From: Thermoplasmatales archaeon SW_10_69_26
Lineage (GTDB): Archaea; Thermoplasmatota; SW-10-69-26
Direction: 5' to 3'
NCBI GenBank assembly: GCA_003009755.1
Contig: PXUB01000038.1
Coordinates: 55,730-119,729 of the forward strand
Length of the DNA: 64,000 nucleotides
Position numbers and translations under genes: made by a program. The notes under the pieces were generated by a model. It did not search any database and was not told the origin of the DNA. It was given only the letters and a program-made list of their open reading frames with translations. Of the stretch, positions 1 to 57,652 are shown in pieces; position 1 is the stretch's first letter; each line of letters opens with the position of its first letter.

Positions 1-848
1 ACTGGTACTTCCCCCACTACCGCGATCCCGGCGTCGCGCTGTACCGGGGCGCCTCGATCGAGGAGATGGTCCACCAGTGCTACGGCACCGGCGAGGATCG
101 GATGCAGGGGCGCCAGATGCCGAACCACTACAGCTTCGAAGAGCTCAACTTCTACTCCATCAGCTCCCCCGTCGCCACGCAGATCCCCCACGCGGTCGGC
201 GCCGCCTACGCCGCCGATCTCGAGGGCGACGACGTCGTCACGGGCGTCAGCTTCGGCGACGGCTGCACCAGCGAGGGGGACTTCCACGTCGGCATGAACT
301 TCGCGGGCGTCTGGGACACGCCGACCGTGTTCCTGTGCGAGAACAACCAGTGGGCGATCTCGGTCCCCAACGAGAAGCAGACCGGCTCGGAGACGTTCGC
401 CCAGAAGGCCGACGCCTACGGCTTCGAGGGCCGCCGCGTCGACGGCAACGACGTGCTGGCCATGTACGCCGAGGCCAAACGCGCCGTCGAGAGCGCCCGC
501 GAGGGCGAGGGCCCGACGCTGATCGAAGCCCTCACCTACCGCATGGGACCGCACAGCTCCTCGGACGATCCCGACCGCTACGTTCCCCAGGAGGAGATCG
601 AGGCCTGGGCCGGGCGCGACCCGATCGACCGCTTCCGCACGTTCCTGATCGAGCAAGGCGTGATCACGGAGACCGAGGACGAGCAGATGCACGAACGCAT
701 CACGGACGAGATCGAGGCGGGCGTCCAGTCGGCCGAGGACGCCGAGGGGCCCACGATCCAATCGATGGTCGAGGACGTCTACGACGAGGTGCCCTGGCAC
801 CTCCAAGAACAGGCAGACGACCTCAAGCGCTTCTACGAGGAGGACTGA
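1..848 (+). CDS. 2-oxoacid dehydrogenase E1 component, alpha subunit (5' partial)
   Basis: Alpha subunit of the decarboxylating E1 component. With the beta subunit it uses thiamine diphosphate to decarboxylate a 2-oxoacid and pass the acyl group to the lipoyl arm of E2. The frame is open from the window edge (first complete codon at base 3, reading WYFPHYRDPG), so the N-terminus lies outside. 281 residues are present, against about 350-370 usual for the family. The ThDP-binding motif is visible as GDGCTSEGDFHVG, closing with ENNQWAIS (about 255-366). Stop TGA lies three bases before the E1-beta start, so this is the first of three tightly packed genes. The substrate (pyruvate, branched-chain 2-oxoacid or acetoin) cannot be decided from sequence. 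Confidence 0.95.
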   Translation, partial: WYFPHYRDPGVALYRGASIEEMVHQCYGTGEDRMQGRQMPNHYSFEELNFYSISSPVATQIPHAVGAAYAADLEGDDVVTGVSFGDGCTSEGDFHVGMNFAGVWDTPTVFLCENNQWAISVPNEKQTGSETFAQKADAYGFEGRRVDGNDVLAMYAEAKRAVESAREGEGPTLIEALTYRMGPHSSSDDPDRYVPQEEIEAWAGRDPIDRFRTFLIEQGVITETEDEQMHERITDEIEAGVQSAEDAEGPTIQSMVEDVYDEVPWHLQEQADDLKRFYEED

Positions 849-851
849 CAC

Positions 852-1826
852 ATGCCGGAGATGACGCTGGTCGACTCGGTGAACGATGCCCTGCACACGG
901 CGATGGACGAGGACGACCGCGTCGTCGTCATGGGCGAGGACGTCGGCGTGAACGGCGGCGTGTTCCGCGCCACCGAAGGCCTGCACGACAGCTACGGCGA
1001 GGAGCGCGTGATCGACACGCCGCTGGCCGAGGCCGGCATCGTCGGTACCGCGCTCGGCATGGCCATGTACGGCCTGCGCCCGGTGCCCGAGATCCAGTTC
1101 ATGGATTTCATCTACCCCGGGTTCGACCAGATCGTCAACGAGATCGCCAAGCTCCGCTACCGGTCCGGCGATCAGTACGAGGCGCCCATGGTCATCCGCA
1201 CGCCCTACGGCGGCGGGATCCGGGGTGGCCACTACCACAGCCAGTCCAGCGAGGCCTACTTCACGCACACGCCCGGCCTCAAGATCGTCGTCCCCAGCAC
1301 GCCCCAGGACACGAAGGGCCTGCTGTTGAGCGCGATCGAGGACCCCGACCCGGTCATGTTCCTCGAGCCCAAGCGCGTCTACCGCGCCGTCAGCGACGAC
1401 GTCCCCGAGGGCCACTACACCGAACCGATCGGCGAAGCCCGCCTCGCCCGCGAGGGCGAGGACGTGACCCTGATCGCGTACGGCGCGATGCACCACGTCG
1501 CCATGGAGGCGGCCGAACGAGCCGCCGACGAGGGCGTCAGCTGCGAGGTCGTCGACCTGCGCACCCTGGTGCCCTTCGACCGTGAGACGCTCGAGGAATC
1601 CGTCACGAAGACCGGCCGCGCCGTCATCGTCCAGGAAGCCCCCCGCACGGCCGGGTTCGCCGCCGAGCTGTCCGCGTTCCTGCACGAGGAGTGCATCCTG
1701 CACATGATCGCACCCGTCCAACGCGTCACAGGCCTGGACACCCCGTTCCCGTACACGCTGGAGGAGGAGTACCTCCCCACACCCACGCGCGTCCTGGATG
1801 CGATCGACGAGACCCTGACCTATTGA
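852..1826 (+). CDS. 2-oxoacid dehydrogenase E1 component, beta subunit
   Basis: Beta subunit of E1, 324 residues, full length for the family. It pairs with the alpha subunit to form the ThDP site and docks on E2. The N-terminal pyrimidine-binding domain carries GEDVGVNGGVFRATEGL (residues about 28-44), the signature of these subunits. The C-terminal transketolase-C domain has EVVDLRTLVPFDRETL. ATG start three bases after the alpha stop and an 11-base gap to E2 argue for one operon encoding the whole E1-E2 core. E3 is not adjacent but lies at 8950, beyond an inserted low-G+C segment. Confidence 0.96.
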   Translation: MPEMTLVDSVNDALHTAMDEDDRVVVMGEDVGVNGGVFRATEGLHDSYGEERVIDTPLAEAGIVGTALGMAMYGLRPVPEIQFMDFIYPGFDQIVNEIAKLRYRSGDQYEAPMVIRTPYGGGIRGGHYHSQSSEAYFTHTPGLKIVVPSTPQDTKGLLLSAIEDPDPVMFLEPKRVYRAVSDDVPEGHYTEPIGEARLAREGEDVTLIAYGAMHHVAMEAAERAADEGVSCEVVDLRTLVPFDRETLEESVTKTGRAVIVQEAPRTAGFAAELSAFLHEECILHMIAPVQRVTGLDTPFPYTLEEEYLPTPTRVLDAIDETLTY

Positions 1827-1837
1827 GGTGACACACG

Positions 1838-3172
1838 TTGACCGAGGACTTCCACTTCGAGCTTCCCGACGTCGGTGAAGGCGTTCACGAGGGCGAGATC
1901 GTCAACTGGCTCGTCAGCGAGGGCGATCAGGTCGACGAAGACCAGGACATCGTCGAGGTCATGACCGACAAGGCGACCGTCCAGATCTCCGCTCCCGTCG
2001 CCGGCACGATCAAGGAGCTGCGTTACGACGAGGGCACCGTCGTCGACGTCGGCGACGTCTTCGTCGTCATCGGTCCCGAGGGCGCGGTCGAGACCGACGA
2101 GGAGGAGACCGCCGACACCGGCGGTGAAGACGGCGCCCCCGAGGCCGAGGCCGGCGAGACCGAGGCCGAGGAGGACGAGGACGAGGACAAGACCCTCTTC
2201 GAGCTGCCCGAGGGGCCCGGCGGCTCCGAGGACGAGCGCCGGCCCGCGCGTCAGCGCGAGTCCACGCCGTCGAGGTCGGGTGAGGTCCTCGCGATGCCGC
2301 GCGTTCGCCACGCCGCCAAGGACCGCGGCGTCGACCTGGCCAGCGTGCAAGCCACCGGCTCCCAGGGCCACGTCACCCTGCAGGATCTCGAGGCCTACCT
2401 CGAGGGCGAGGCCGGCGGCTTCGAGCTCGAGCACTTCGACTTCGACCTGCCCTCCGTCGACCGTGACCAGGCGCGCGAGGTCGAGCCGCTCAAGGGCCTG
2501 CGCAAGCGCATCGCGGAGAACATGACGCGCGCGAAGACCCTGCAGCCGCACTTCACCTACGTCGACGAGCTCCGCGCCGACGAGCTCGTCTCCACGCGCA
2601 ACGAGCTCAAGCAGCTCGGCGAGAAGCGCGACGTCAACGTCACCTACCTGCCCCTGCTCGTCAAGGCCGTCGTCCGCGCCCTCCGCGAGCACCCGCGCTG
2701 CAACGCGCTCATCGACGAGGAAGACCAACAGCTGGTGATCAAGCAGCCGATCAACGTCGGCATCGCCGTCGCCACCGACCGCGGCCTCGTCGTCCCCGTC
2801 GTCAAGAACGCCGACGAGAAGACCCTGCTCGAGATCGCCTCGGAGATCGAGACGCTCGCCCAGAAAGCCCACGAGAACCGTCTCTCGATGGACGACCTCA
2901 CCGGCGGCACGTTCACGATCACCAGCCTCGGCGCCGTCGGCGGCATGCTGGCGACCCCGATCCTGTTCCATCCCCAGGTTGCCATCATGGGCGTCCACGC
3001 CATCCGCGATGAACCCGTCGTCGAGGACGGCGAGGTCGTGCCCGGCAAGAAGATGAACCTCTCGTTCACCTTCGACCACCGCATCGTCGACGGCTACGAC
3101 GGTGCCCTGTTCGCCCAGGACGTCAAGAAGTACCTCGAGGACCCGAACCTGTTGCTGCTCGAGGGCCGCTGA
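1838..3172 (+). CDS. 2-oxoacid dehydrogenase E2 component (dihydrolipoyl acyltransferase)
   Basis: Core acyltransferase of the complex; moves the acyl group from its lipoyl arm to CoA. Domains in order: lipoyl domain (residues 1-80, lipoylated Lys in VEVMTDKATVQIS), a very acidic linker rich in Glu/Asp (about 88-130), peripheral-subunit-binding domain (about 148-187, MPRVRHAAKDRGVDLASV), and the catalytic domain ending in SFTFDHRIVDGYDGALF with the HRxxDG active site. Length 444 is normal for a one-lipoyl E2. The start is TTG, supported by a Shine-Dalgarno-like GAGGTGA six bases upstream that overlaps the E1-beta stop. The acidic linker fits a salt-adapted proteome. Confidence 0.96.
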   Translation: MTEDFHFELPDVGEGVHEGEIVNWLVSEGDQVDEDQDIVEVMTDKATVQISAPVAGTIKELRYDEGTVVDVGDVFVVIGPEGAVETDEEETADTGGEDGAPEAEAGETEAEEDEDEDKTLFELPEGPGGSEDERRPARQRESTPSRSGEVLAMPRVRHAAKDRGVDLASVQATGSQGHVTLQDLEAYLEGEAGGFELEHFDFDLPSVDRDQAREVEPLKGLRKRIAENMTRAKTLQPHFTYVDELRADELVSTRNELKQLGEKRDVNVTYLPLLVKAVVRALREHPRCNALIDEEDQQLVIKQPINVGIAVATDRGLVVPVVKNADEKTLLEIASEIETLAQKAHENRLSMDDLTGGTFTITSLGAVGGMLATPILFHPQVAIMGVHAIRDEPVVEDGEVVPGKKMNLSFTFDHRIVDGYDGALFAQDVKKYLEDPNLLLLEGR

Positions 3173-8940: not shown

Positions 8941-8949
8941 AGAACCGCC

Positions 8950-10332
8950 ATGACAGATGACACCGACCTCCTCGTCGTCGGGGGCGGGCCCGGCGGCTAC
9001 CACGCCGCGATCCGCGCCGCCCAACTGGGCCTCGACGTGACCTGCGTCGACAAGGGCTCCTTCGGCGGGGTCTGCCTGCACTGGGGTTGCATCCCGTCCA
9101 AGGGCCTCATCGGGATGGGCAAGCTCGTCGACGAGATCCGCGAGTGGAGCGAACGCGGCCTCGAGGCGAGCGACCTCGAGGTCGACCTGGCCGAGACCCA
9201 GGAGTGGAAGCAGGGCCAGATCGACCAGCTGGCCCGCGGCGTCAAGCACCTGATGAGCAGCCGCGGCGTCGACGTCCGCGAAGGCACCGTCCGCCTGACC
9301 GGCGAGAACGAGGCCACGATCGACGGTGAACCGATCACGTTCGACCAGGCCCTCATCGCCACCGGCTCCAGCCCGATCGAGCTGCCCCACATCCCCTTCG
9401 ACGGCGAGACGGTGCTCGGCTCGCGCGAAGCGCTGGCGCTCGAGGAACCACCCGAGTCCCTGGCCGTCATCGGCGGCGGCTTCATCGGGCTCGAGATCGG
9501 TCAGTTCTACGAGCAGCTCGGGGCCGACGTCACCGTGGTCGAGATGCTGGACTCGGTCCTCCCCACCGCGGACGACGACCTCGGTGAGGAGCTGGGCCGC
9601 CAGCTCACCAAGCGCGGCCTCACCGTCCACACCCAGACCGAAGCCACCGACGCCGACGTCAGCGACGATGGCGTCCGCCTGAGCCTCGACGGCCCCAAGG
9701 CCGAACAGCTCGAGGCCGAGAAGCTGCTCGTCGCCGTCGGCCGCCAACCCAACACCGAAGGCATCGGCCTGGCCAAGGCCGGCGTCGAGACCGAGGACAG
9801 CGGCCACATCGCGGTCGACGACCAGATGCGCACGAGCAACGACGACATCTTCGCCATCGGCGACACCGTGCCCGGGCCCGCGTTGGCGCACAAGGCCAGC
9901 CACGAGGGCATCCACGCCGCCGCCGTCGCGGCCGGCCAGGACCACGTCGTCGTCGACTACCGCGCCATCCCGTGGTTCTGCTACACCACGCCCGAGGTCG
10001 CCGGCGTCGGCCTCACCGAGGAGGAAGCCCGCAGCCAGCACGAGGACCCGATCGTCGAGCAGTTCCCCTTCGCCGCGCTCGGCAAGGCCAAGATGAGCGG
10101 CCACACCGACGGCTGGGCCAAGGTCATCGCCCGGCAGGACGGCGCGCTGCTCGGCGTCCAGCTCGTCGGGCCCGACGCCACGAACCTCGTCGCCGAGCCC
10201 GCGCTCGCGATCGAGATGGGCGCCACGCTGACCGACGTGGCCGAGACCGTGCACGCCCACCCGACGCTGGCGGAAGTGTTCCTCGAGGCCGCCGAGGCCG
10301 CCCAGGGTCACCCGGTCCACGTCTCCAAGTAG
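8950..10332 (+). CDS. lpdA: Dihydrolipoyl dehydrogenase (E3)
   Basis: FAD-dependent E3 component that reoxidises the dihydrolipoyl arm of E2 and reduces NAD+. 460 residues, full length. FAD-binding GGGPGGYHAAIRAAQ near the N-terminus, the redox-active disulfide GGVCLHWGCIPSKG (two Cys separated by four residues), the NAD-binding AVIGGGFIGLEIGQ (about residue 175), the second FAD motif IFAIGDT, and the catalytic HAHPTLAEV near the C-terminus are all present. ATG 8950 begins exactly at the Rossmann strand (MTDDTDLLVVGGG); upstream codons are not conserved. It most likely serves the E1-E2 genes at 1-3172, from which it is separated by the transposase/beta-helix insert. Ends in TAG with a second in-frame stop 15 bases on. 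Confidence 0.97.
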   Translation: MTDDTDLLVVGGGPGGYHAAIRAAQLGLDVTCVDKGSFGGVCLHWGCIPSKGLIGMGKLVDEIREWSERGLEASDLEVDLAETQEWKQGQIDQLARGVKHLMSSRGVDVREGTVRLTGENEATIDGEPITFDQALIATGSSPIELPHIPFDGETVLGSREALALEEPPESLAVIGGGFIGLEIGQFYEQLGADVTVVEMLDSVLPTADDDLGEELGRQLTKRGLTVHTQTEATDADVSDDGVRLSLDGPKAEQLEAEKLLVAVGRQPNTEGIGLAKAGVETEDSGHIAVDDQMRTSNDDIFAIGDTVPGPALAHKASHEGIHAAAVAAGQDHVVVDYRAIPWFCYTTPEVAGVGLTEEEARSQHEDPIVEQFPFAALGKAKMSGHTDGWAKVIARQDGALLGVQLVGPDATNLVAEPALAIEMGATLTDVAETVHAHPTLAEVFLEAAEAAQGHPVHVSK

Positions 10333-12949: not shown

Positions 12950-13453
12950 ATGTCAGGCACGCGGGCCGAGGTGGACCTGTTCGCAGCGATCGATCCCGAC
13001 TGGCCGCCGCTGGACGACGTGCGCGAAGGCTGGCAGGCCCTCGACGAGGATGGCCGAGCCCGCGTCCGGCGCCGGCTGGCCGCCGTCCTGGCCGAGATCG
13101 AGCTTGACGACGAGGCCAACGAGGCCGCCGTCCGAGGCTTCCTCTCCTTCCTGGCCCAGGTCGAACCGATCGCCATCGACGTCCCGCTGCAAGCCCTGGC
13201 GGACGCCGAGGGAGAGGATGCCCGTCTGCACGAGCGCCAGCTCGCCGACGAGGTGTTCCACGCGCTGCTGTTCGCCCACCTCGCCGAGCGCCACGGCGGC
13301 CTCGCCGAACCGATCGGTGCTGCCGAAGACCTGCTGGCCGAGATCCGCGCTCCCGAGGACCTGGCCCACCGCGCCGTCCTGTTGAACCTCATCGCGGAGG
13401 CCTGGTTCGAGACCCTCTTCGAGCACGCCGCCGAGTGGGGCCTTGCAGACTAG
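12950..13453 (+). CDS. Ferritin-like diiron domain, N-terminal part (ends at an in-frame TAG)
   Basis: Helices A to C of a ferritin-like four-helix domain. Putative metal ligands: Glu72 (helix A, AQVEPIA), Glu101 and His104 (helix B, ADEVFHALLF) and Glu150 (helix C, LIAEAWFETLFEH). The reading frame is stopped by TAG at 13451-13453, but the same frame continues at once into helix D with the last ligand pair (EERH, Glu177/His180 of the joined protein). The stop therefore falls in the loop between helices C and D, and this 167-residue piece alone could not make a complete diiron site. A TATA-like ATCCTTTTGCC lies about 30 bases upstream of the ATG. Read together with the next entry. Confidence 0.8.
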   Translation: MSGTRAEVDLFAAIDPDWPPLDDVREGWQALDEDGRARVRRRLAAVLAEIELDDEANEAAVRGFLSFLAQVEPIAIDVPLQALADAEGEDARLHERQLADEVFHALLFAHLAERHGGLAEPIGAAEDLLAEIRAPEDLAHRAVLLNLIAEAWFETLFEHAAEWGLAD

Positions 13454-14647
13454 GTGTTCGAGATCGCGCTCGCCGACGAGGAACGCCACGTCGAGGAGGG
13501 CCACGTCCACGCCGCCGACGTCGACCCCGAGGAGATCGAGGACCTCGTCCGCGACTTCGAGGAGAAGCTGTTCGCCCTCGTCCAGCACCCCCGCATCCTG
13601 TTGCCGATCCTCGAGCTGGCCGGCGAAGACGCCGCCCGCGACTTGTCGCGCGCCTACCTCGCCACGCACGAGCAAGCCCTCGCCGAGATCGGGCTCGAAC
13701 CGCCCGAAGCCGTCGACGAGATGGCTCACACCCTCGCGGAGCTCGAGAACGACACCGACGGCATCGGGACCCCGACCCGCATCGAGCCCGAGACGAACTG
13801 GCGGCAGACGGCCCTCCACCTCTGGGACACACCCCGCAACCCGGTCATGCACGGCTGGTTCGACGTCGAGACCGAGCCGATCCCGGACGAGCTTTTAACC
13901 CCGATCGCCGTCGCCGCCGTCGGCCGCGTCTGGCACGAGTACCCCCGCGTCAACCGGTACACGCTCGGCGACGAGATCTACGAGCCCGACGGCGTCAACG
14001 TCGGCGTGCGCGTAACTCTCGGCGACGACCACGAGGCCCTGTCCACGATCGTCGTCCCCGACGCCCACGAGCGCTCGGTGACCGACATCCAACGCATCCT
14101 GGAAGCCGGCGTCCACGAGATGAACCGGCTGGGCCGACAGCTCGAGCCGATCGACCCGACCGAGGAGACCGAGCCGCTGCGCGCCGTGCTGCGCGACGAG
14201 GAGCTGATGAGCATGGTGCCGCCCGAAACCGTGGCCGCGCCCGTCACCGTCGCCAACTCCGGTCCCTCGGGCATGGTCGCAGGCTTCGGCGCCATGCCCG
14301 GCGCGCTCGGACAAAGCGTCGAGTTCGTGCTCGGTCGCATCGAGCAACGCCCCAGCTGGAACGGCGACCGCTACGTGCCCGCCGACCACGTGACCGTCGG
14401 CTGCTCGGCCGACCATCGCGTCATCGACGGCCACCACGCCGGGCAAACGATGGACCGGCTACAGACGGCCCTCTCCGAGGACGCCGTCGACGAGATCCTC
14501 ACCCGAGACGACACGATCCCCGCCGACGCCGACCTGGGGGACGTCGCGCTCAGCCCGGTTGGGATGGGTACCCAGCAGGTCGAACTCATGATGTCCTGCA
14601 AGCTGCCCTTCTGGCTGGGATGGATGTGTTGGCTGTTCAAGAAGTAG
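13454..14647 (+). CDS. Ferritin helix D fused to an E2-type (CAT-fold) acyltransferase domain
   Basis: Directly after TAG the same frame continues VFEIALADEERHVEEGH, the fourth ferritin helix with its ExxH pair, then about 80 further helical residues. From about residue 115 follows a 2-oxoacid-dehydrogenase-type acyltransferase domain: NPVMHGWFDVE at its start and the active-site HRVIDG (His321 of this piece) in VGCSADHRVIDGHH near its end. No lipoyl or subunit-binding domain is present. The C-terminus ends in a short hydrophobic, Trp/Cys-containing tail (LPFWLGWMCWLFKK). A GTG immediately after TAG could restart translation, giving a two-chain protein. Otherwise the pair is one ~565-residue fusion interrupted by an amber codon. 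I know of no described protein with this architecture. Confidence 0.8.
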   Translation: MFEIALADEERHVEEGHVHAADVDPEEIEDLVRDFEEKLFALVQHPRILLPILELAGEDAARDLSRAYLATHEQALAEIGLEPPEAVDEMAHTLAELENDTDGIGTPTRIEPETNWRQTALHLWDTPRNPVMHGWFDVETEPIPDELLTPIAVAAVGRVWHEYPRVNRYTLGDEIYEPDGVNVGVRVTLGDDHEALSTIVVPDAHERSVTDIQRILEAGVHEMNRLGRQLEPIDPTEETEPLRAVLRDEELMSMVPPETVAAPVTVANSGPSGMVAGFGAMPGALGQSVEFVLGRIEQRPSWNGDRYVPADHVTVGCSADHRVIDGHHAGQTMDRLQTALSEDAVDEILTRDDTIPADADLGDVALSPVGMGTQQVELMMSCKLPFWLGWMCWLFKK

Positions 14648-57079: not shown

Positions 57080-57268
57080 CTAGGGGTGAGGCTGGCGGGC
57101 CTCGACGAGGTAGGTGAACGCGCCGGTGTCGTGGGTCTGGACGTCGTCGAAGCGGCGCTCGATCATCGCCGTCAGATCCTCCGGCGCGAGGAAGCGGGAC
57201 CCGAAGCGCATCACCACGTTCTCGCCGAGCTCGATGGCTCGCCCGATCGGGTGGCCGGGGTCGATCTC
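57080..57268 (-). pseudogene. C-terminal part of the methyltransferase beyond the in-frame TAG
   Basis: Directly after TAG (57271-57269) the same frame reads EIDPGHPIGRAIELGEN, MRFGSRFLAPEDLTAM and TGAFTYLVEARQPHP to TAG 57082. This is the expected end of a Rossmann methyltransferase (strands 5 to 7). It has no start or promoter of its own, so it is expressed only if the amber codon is read through or is an error. Confidence 0.65.
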
Positions 57269-57652
57269 CTAGACGGCGAAGCCGCCCTCGGGGCGGAGGA
57301 CGCGGGCGATCTCGGCGACGATCGCCTCCTGGTCGGGGGCGAAGTGGTGGAAGGCTTCGGTAACCGTGACGGCGCCCACGGAGGCGTCGGCGAGCGGCAG
57401 GTCGACGCCGTCGGCGAGGATCGGCGCCACCGATCGCTCGGCGCGACGGGCGCGGGCGAGCATGCCCCGGCTGCGGTCGGCCAGCACGCGCGGGGAGCGC
57501 TCGGCGTGCAGGCTGCCGGTGAAGCGGCCGGTGCCGCCCCCGAGATCGAGGCCGGGCCCGTCGAGGTTGGCCAGGGTCTGGCGGACGGTGTCGGGCTGGG
57601 TCGGAATCGGCAACAGGTCGTAGATGCGGGCGAGCCGATCGAAGCGCGCCAA
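57269..57652 (-). CDS. Class I SAM methyltransferase, interrupted by an in-frame TAG
   Basis: Methyltransferase whose frame opens at TTG 57652, four bases after the stop of the PEBP gene (ARFDRLARIYDLLPI). Motif I is LDLGGGTGRFTGSL (residues about 35-48), post-I VLADRSRGMLARAR, motif IV-like VTVTEAFHHFAPDQEA and RVLRPEGGFAV, where TAG at codon 128 stops translation in the middle of strand 5. Homologous text continues in frame for 62 codons (next entry). As encoded the protein would be truncated by a third and should not fold. Either the codon is read as sense, or the gene is a recent pseudogene, or a base is wrong. Confidence 0.75.
   Translation of the reverse strand: MARFDRLARIYDLLPIPTQPDTVRQTLANLDGPGLDLGGGTGRFTGSLHAERSPRVLADRSRGMLARARRAERSVAPILADGVDLPLADASVGAVTVTEAFHHFAPDQEAIVAEIARVLRPEGGFAV

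Follow-up and report, generated by a model that had tools for sequence, protein, structure and literature searches.

A predicted four-helix diiron domain and an E2/CAT-type acyltransferase domain are fused in a single reading frame of the Thermoplasmatales archaeon SW_10_69_26, and this frame is interrupted once, by an in-frame TAG. On balance, we favour the reading that this is one gene, encoding a rare and laterally scattered fusion enzyme, whose C–D interhelix loop has acquired a TAG by a single recent nonsense substitution. Uninterrupted homologues in bacteria, the use of TAG as a normal terminator in this genome and the presence of other sporadic TAG interruptions carry this reading. The nearest homologue, which is likewise cut once by a TAG in the C–D loop, is evidence against it and is weighed below.

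One reading frame encoding two domains

The window is a stretch of 64,000 nt (assembly GCA_003009755.1, contig PXUB01000038.1, positions 55,730–119,729 of the forward strand). Within it, a frame of 565 codons (12950–14644, + strand) has the TAG at 13451–13453 as its sole interruption. Its features are as follows.

12950, + strand: start codon ATG (frame check)
12950–13450, + strand: upstream ORF, leader and first three helices (A–C) of the ferritin-like diiron domain, residues 1–167 (alignment with fused homologues; AF2 model)
13163–13165, + strand: Glu72 codon, predicted metal ligand of helix A (invariant in 11 homologues)
13250–13261, + strand: Glu101-x-x-His104, predicted ligands of helix B (invariant)
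13397–13399, + strand: Glu150 codon, predicted ligand of helix C (invariant in 9 fused sequences and the divergent locus L035)
13451–13453, + strand: in-frame TAG, codon 168, in the C–D interhelix loop or first turn of helix D (sequence; AF2 model)
13454–13456, + strand: GTG (Val169), possible restart codon, abutting the TAG as TAGGTG (locus L019 likewise uses GTG for the homologous Val)
13454–14644, + strand: downstream ORF, helix D, remaining helical domain, linker and E2/CAT-type acyltransferase domain, residues 169–565 (sequence, PF00198, models)
13478–13489, + strand: Glu177-x-x-His180, predicted ligands of helix D, past the TAG (invariant; aligned with MMOH DELRH)
13760–14500, + strand: E2/CAT catalytic-type domain (PF00198 above cut-off; model of this part alone matches E2 cores)
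14411–14431, + strand: D-H-R-V-I-D-G, E2/CAT active-site motif, with His489 at 14414–14416 (sequence, alignment)
14645–14647, + strand: terminal TAG of the frame (sequence)

A first-pass annotation, made from the sequence alone, had claimed that the frame is the same on either side of the TAG. This was confirmed, and no other stop occurs within the 565 codons. GC content by codon position (0.84/0.42/0.88 before the TAG, 0.74/0.41/0.92 after it) is continuous across the interruption. When 1.58 Mb of the genome were scanned by codon usage, this TAG ranked first among in-frame stops flanked before and after by strong coding signal.

AF2 modelling of the two parts joined gave a good fold for residues 20–250 (helical domain pLDDT about 80–92). 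The predicted helices A (55–75), B (88–114), C (138–162) and D (167–188) form a ferritin-like, R2-like four-helix bundle carrying the predicted ligands in the order E, ExxH, E, ExxH. Codon 168 falls at the N-terminal edge of predicted helix D, so the annotation was right to place the TAG between helices C and D. It had also named the ligands correctly: Glu72, Glu101, His104, Glu150 and the Glu177 and His180 of the downstream EERH are identical in 9/9 fused sequences aligned. A chain ending at the TAG has an incomplete ligand set, Glu177 and His180 being encoded downstream of the stop. In the model, the downstream helix is predicted to complete the bundle. The helix and ligand positions, together with the invariance of the ligands across the TAG, thus support the claim that a diiron site needs both parts.

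The solved structures closest to the predicted helical fold were aldehyde deformylating oxygenase, ADO (4rc7; VIA Z 22.0 over 206 residues, 3.1 A) and the soluble methane monooxygenase hydroxylase, MMOH (7tc7; VIA Z 18.9), both of which have the same ligand order, E / ExxH / E / ExxH, as the window protein. A profile comparison with a weak E-value (0.02) placed Glu150 on the GEACF Glu of MMOH and Glu177xxHis180 on the MMOH ligands. In contrast to these enzymes, to which it is 14–16% identical, the window protein has a CAT domain fused behind the helical domain and no Pfam match to their families. The resemblance to ADO is in fold only, with no match to such a family model in Pfam at E up to 1, and no Pfam or NCBIfam model matches the first domain.

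The downstream CAT-fold domain with its HRVIDG motif, also proposed from the sequence, was borne out. PF00198 matched the downstream part at 1.5e−13 (51.2 bits against a curated cut-off of 23), and the HxxxDG motif is present. Modelled alone, the CAT part reached modest confidence (mean pLDDT 57), yet it clearly matched E2 cores (Foldseek 3.3e−11 to 3mae; VIA Z 16.2 over 168 residues). The PF00198 domain, the HRVIDG motif and the E2-core fold are therefore common to the window protein and the catalytic domain of 2-oxoacid dehydrogenase E2. A Pfam search of the chain found no lipoyl and no E3-binding domain, whereas the separate, complete E2 of the same genome (1832–3169) has both. That E2 belongs to a pyruvate dehydrogenase whose genes lie near the fusion, as the annotation had observed.

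3–3169: pyruvate dehydrogenase E1-alpha, E1-beta and complete lipoyl-bearing E2 with E3-binding domain
8944–10329: pyruvate dehydrogenase E3

The neighbouring complex thus already owns a complete E2, apart from the fused protein. In intact members of the family, a single chain would combine an oxygen-activating diiron site with the CAT domain, the latter serving in acyl transfer or as an oligomeric core. Such an enzyme would bind two metals and could act on an acyl-thioester or acyl-carrier substrate. The annotation's idea that the fused protein oxidises a substrate bound to an acyl carrier stays conjectural.

Homologues and spread of the fusion

Using tblastn, we found a stand-alone ferritin-like relative on a plasmid of Legionella adelaidensis. 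Its alignment runs through the TAG, opposite which it has Lys; Lys also stands at the position of Glu150. An initial contig scan with a single sequence as the query gave no matches; a two-sequence profile search of 84,980 species genomes returned eight loci. In seven of these (L020–L026), which come from Legionellaceae and other Gammaproteobacteria, a single ORF with no stop covers the entire fusion and all ligands are kept. In the eighth (L019, Myxococcota MAG DP_38), the fusion is interrupted once by a TAG. Together with a more divergent fused gene, also without a stop, in genome G518, this gives a total of eight uninterrupted single-ORF fusions.

The whole gene thus exists as one ORF in relatives, from which we conclude that the two parts in the archaeon are one gene; the homologues do not encode them as unrelated genes with a complete ferritin domain elsewhere. 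Nor is the fusion unique to this genome, as had seemed from the sequence alone, since the uncut bacterial homologues carry the same architecture. L020–L026, which are unnamed in Pfam and NCBIfam, have the domain order and diiron ligands of the window protein at 20–25% overall identity. They differ from the window gene in having no stop codon and in being extended at the C terminus, by about 130 residues at most. L019 is closer (38–42% identity) and shares the single TAG in the C–D loop, whereas its TAG, which aligns with Trp163 of the window protein, comes five codons earlier and its gene ends in TGA. In the tree, the window gene groups with L019 with moderate support (80/66) and long branches.

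The searches for further members covered several groups. In the archaeon's own class and phylum, no orthologue was found, only generic E2 matches. Among 317 Myxococcota-class genomes and a 377-genome phylum sample, L019 and the divergent L035 were the only members of the clade, and viral contigs yielded none. We found no report of a diiron/E2 fusion in the openly accessible literature. The combination of a diiron oxygenase-like domain with an E2-type acyltransferase is an apparently unnamed architecture, with a patchy distribution over an archaeon, Myxococcota and Legionellaceae.

The CAT motif varies among the relatives. Its His, kept in the window protein, is replaced by Ser or Asn in four Legionella members (L021, L023, L025 and L026), which suggests a non-catalytic or altered acyltransferase domain in these proteins. 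Acyl transfer may therefore not be kept everywhere. In three Legionella genomes, the next gene upstream in the same orientation (L023:5002–5967, L025:4977–5942 and L026:4717–5682) encodes a putative polyprenyl diphosphate synthase, judging from its N-terminal sequence.

TAG decoding and sporadic TAG interruptions in the genome

The annotation had also considered programmed readthrough. Whether programmed or tolerated, reading of the TAG by a near-cognate or suppressor tRNA would give some full-length enzyme. Its attraction is that the reading frame stays intact across the stop and that a TAGG context is common to the two interrupted homologues and most of the other interrupted genes described below. 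The searches for a means to decode the codon, however, found none. No match to PylS_Cterm over the cut-off was found in the whole genome (a Methanosarcina control passed), which rules out pyrrolysine decoding. No tRNA with a CTA anticodon was found, either by a whole-genome pattern search or by ARAGORN on 1.97 Mb (70% of the genome), searches in which an intron-containing tRNA could be missed; those pattern matches that are tRNAs were Arg-TCT only. The same genome sample holds four copies of tRNA-Glu(CTC). Moreover, TAG terminates 416 of 1529 coding-scored frames in the 1.97-Mb sample (about 27%), which rules out its wholesale reassignment.

The stop itself is not conserved, with a sense codon at the position of codon 168 in eight homologues and the TAG of L019 at another codon. 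The residues replaced differ between the interrupted genes, and homologues show K, E, A, H or S at the position of codon 168. The CTAGG context shows no more than a mild enrichment relative to GAG codons (P = 0.026). We therefore consider readthrough, whether programmed or tolerated, very unlikely.

A census of interruptions, judged partly by eye, covered the same 1.97 Mb. Most same-frame coding pairs appeared by eye to be ordinary gene boundaries, in which a TAG or TGA is followed by an ATG. Four or five other genes are interrupted by a single stop, in every case a TAG.

TAG 57269–57271, − strand: SAM-dependent methyltransferase, frame 57083–57652 (GAG and no stop in the same-family genome G001)
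TAG L119:19229–19231: SDR oxidoreductase (domain spans the TAG)
TAG L070:18016–18018: AbiEii-type gene (domain spans the TAG)
TAG L083:1629–1631: DNNEVLQ-repeat protein (census)
TAG L116:17599–17601: possible DDAH-like gene (by eye only)

About 0.4% of frames in the genome are interrupted. The exclusive use of TAG is as expected and no sign of recoding. The codons that a single step would turn into TAG, TGA and TAA account for 0.180, 0.032 and 0.040 of codon use, respectively, so that TAG should arise in about 70% of random nonsense changes. In-frame stops in prokaryotic genes have been described as widespread and mostly short-lived (PMC7918605). We also considered a Dcm-like mutational hot spot converting CCAGG to CTAGG, most interrupted codons reading C-TAG-G. 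This was rejected, as counts of CTAGG and CCAGG were near expectation, precursors of the GAG type showed just a mild excess and no more than a single C5-methylase gene was observed.

The same scatter of TAGs bears on a further reading, namely that the TAG is a base error in the consensus or reflects a mixture of strains, most cells having a sense codon at 13451. The source is a genome assembly in 49 contigs, several single TAGs are scattered through it, and the relative of the interrupted methyltransferase has GAG. In addition, CTAG is strongly under-represented in the genome sample (0.37 of expectation), which makes its occurrence in a coding frame unusual. Consensus errors are, however, rare per base, and a like interruption occurs in an unrelated Myxococcota assembly. 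An error or mixture is hence improbable, though less so than readthrough.

A sporadic nonsense substitution remains the reading we favour, and the TAG would then be a true and recent mutation. A single base change in the sampled archaeon would have placed the TAG in the C–D loop. As TAG is an ordinary terminator in this genome, most translation would end after helix C, giving a product unable to complete the metal site, and nothing points to a dedicated decoding of TAG 13451. The remaining frame would be intact because the change is recent. The gene in the sampled archaeon is probably inactive or being lost. If the TAG is such a sporadic change, amber codons in G+C-rich assemblies need to be set against a genome-wide base rate before recoding is claimed.

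A second TAG in the C–D loop of the Myxococcota homologue

The single in-frame TAG of L019 aligns with window residue 163, five codons from the TAG of the window gene. Both cuts lie within the six-residue C–D loop, leave every helix whole and are upstream of the same GTG valine. Of the 36 columns invariant in the nine-sequence fused alignment, neither interrupted gene has lost any, before or after its stop. Since about 0.4% of frames are interrupted and 2–3% of TAG-prone codons are no more than five codons away from the stop, the chance of both cuts is ~1 in 2000, a rough and post hoc figure that allows for eight homologues.

This coincidence speaks for a natural split enzyme, in which translation would stop at the TAG and restart at the adjacent GTG, and helices A–C would assemble with a second chain (helix D and the CAT domain) into the diiron bundle. 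The position in a loop would make the cut tolerable or even selected. The clade's only two members have independent TAGs, at codons 163 and 168, each followed by the homologous GTG valine, after which the frame is open for about 397–400 codons. In the archaeon, the GTG directly abuts the stop, and cutting the chain there keeps both helices of the AF2 model whole. If true, this would be a natural diiron site built from two polypeptides whose coding sequences were once a single gene.

The initiation signals, however, are unconvincing. The ribosome-binding energy at the archaeal GTG is −5.4 kcal/mol, a strength reached by 49% of random sites; the site in L019 is stronger (−8.6 kcal/mol, 13% of random sites) but lies 12 nt away. 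A GTG codon for a conserved valine is unremarkable in a G+C-rich gene, and all other homologues are uncut. Furthermore, a restart in L019 would skip the stretch of five codons from the TAG to the GTG (GIAD-H), yet this stretch still matches the family consensus, which suggests that the stop is recent. We therefore regard a natural split enzyme as unlikely, although less so than an assembly error. Similarly doubtful, to about the same degree, is the fuller scenario in which amber codons arose independently in the C–D loop of an archaeon and a myxobacterium and a second polypeptide is made from the same valine GTG in each.

The two cuts may be best reconciled with sporadic nonsense by survivorship, i.e. 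a cut in the C–D loop may be better tolerated than one elsewhere. In a 272-kb sample of the Myxococcota MAG (G389), a polyketide ketosynthase was the one further gene genuinely interrupted by TAG, and this genome therefore also has a background of TAG interruptions. The ketosynthase TAG (L205:6523, − strand) falls within the conserved RG(S)AVNQDG motif, which reads RG*AVNQDG.
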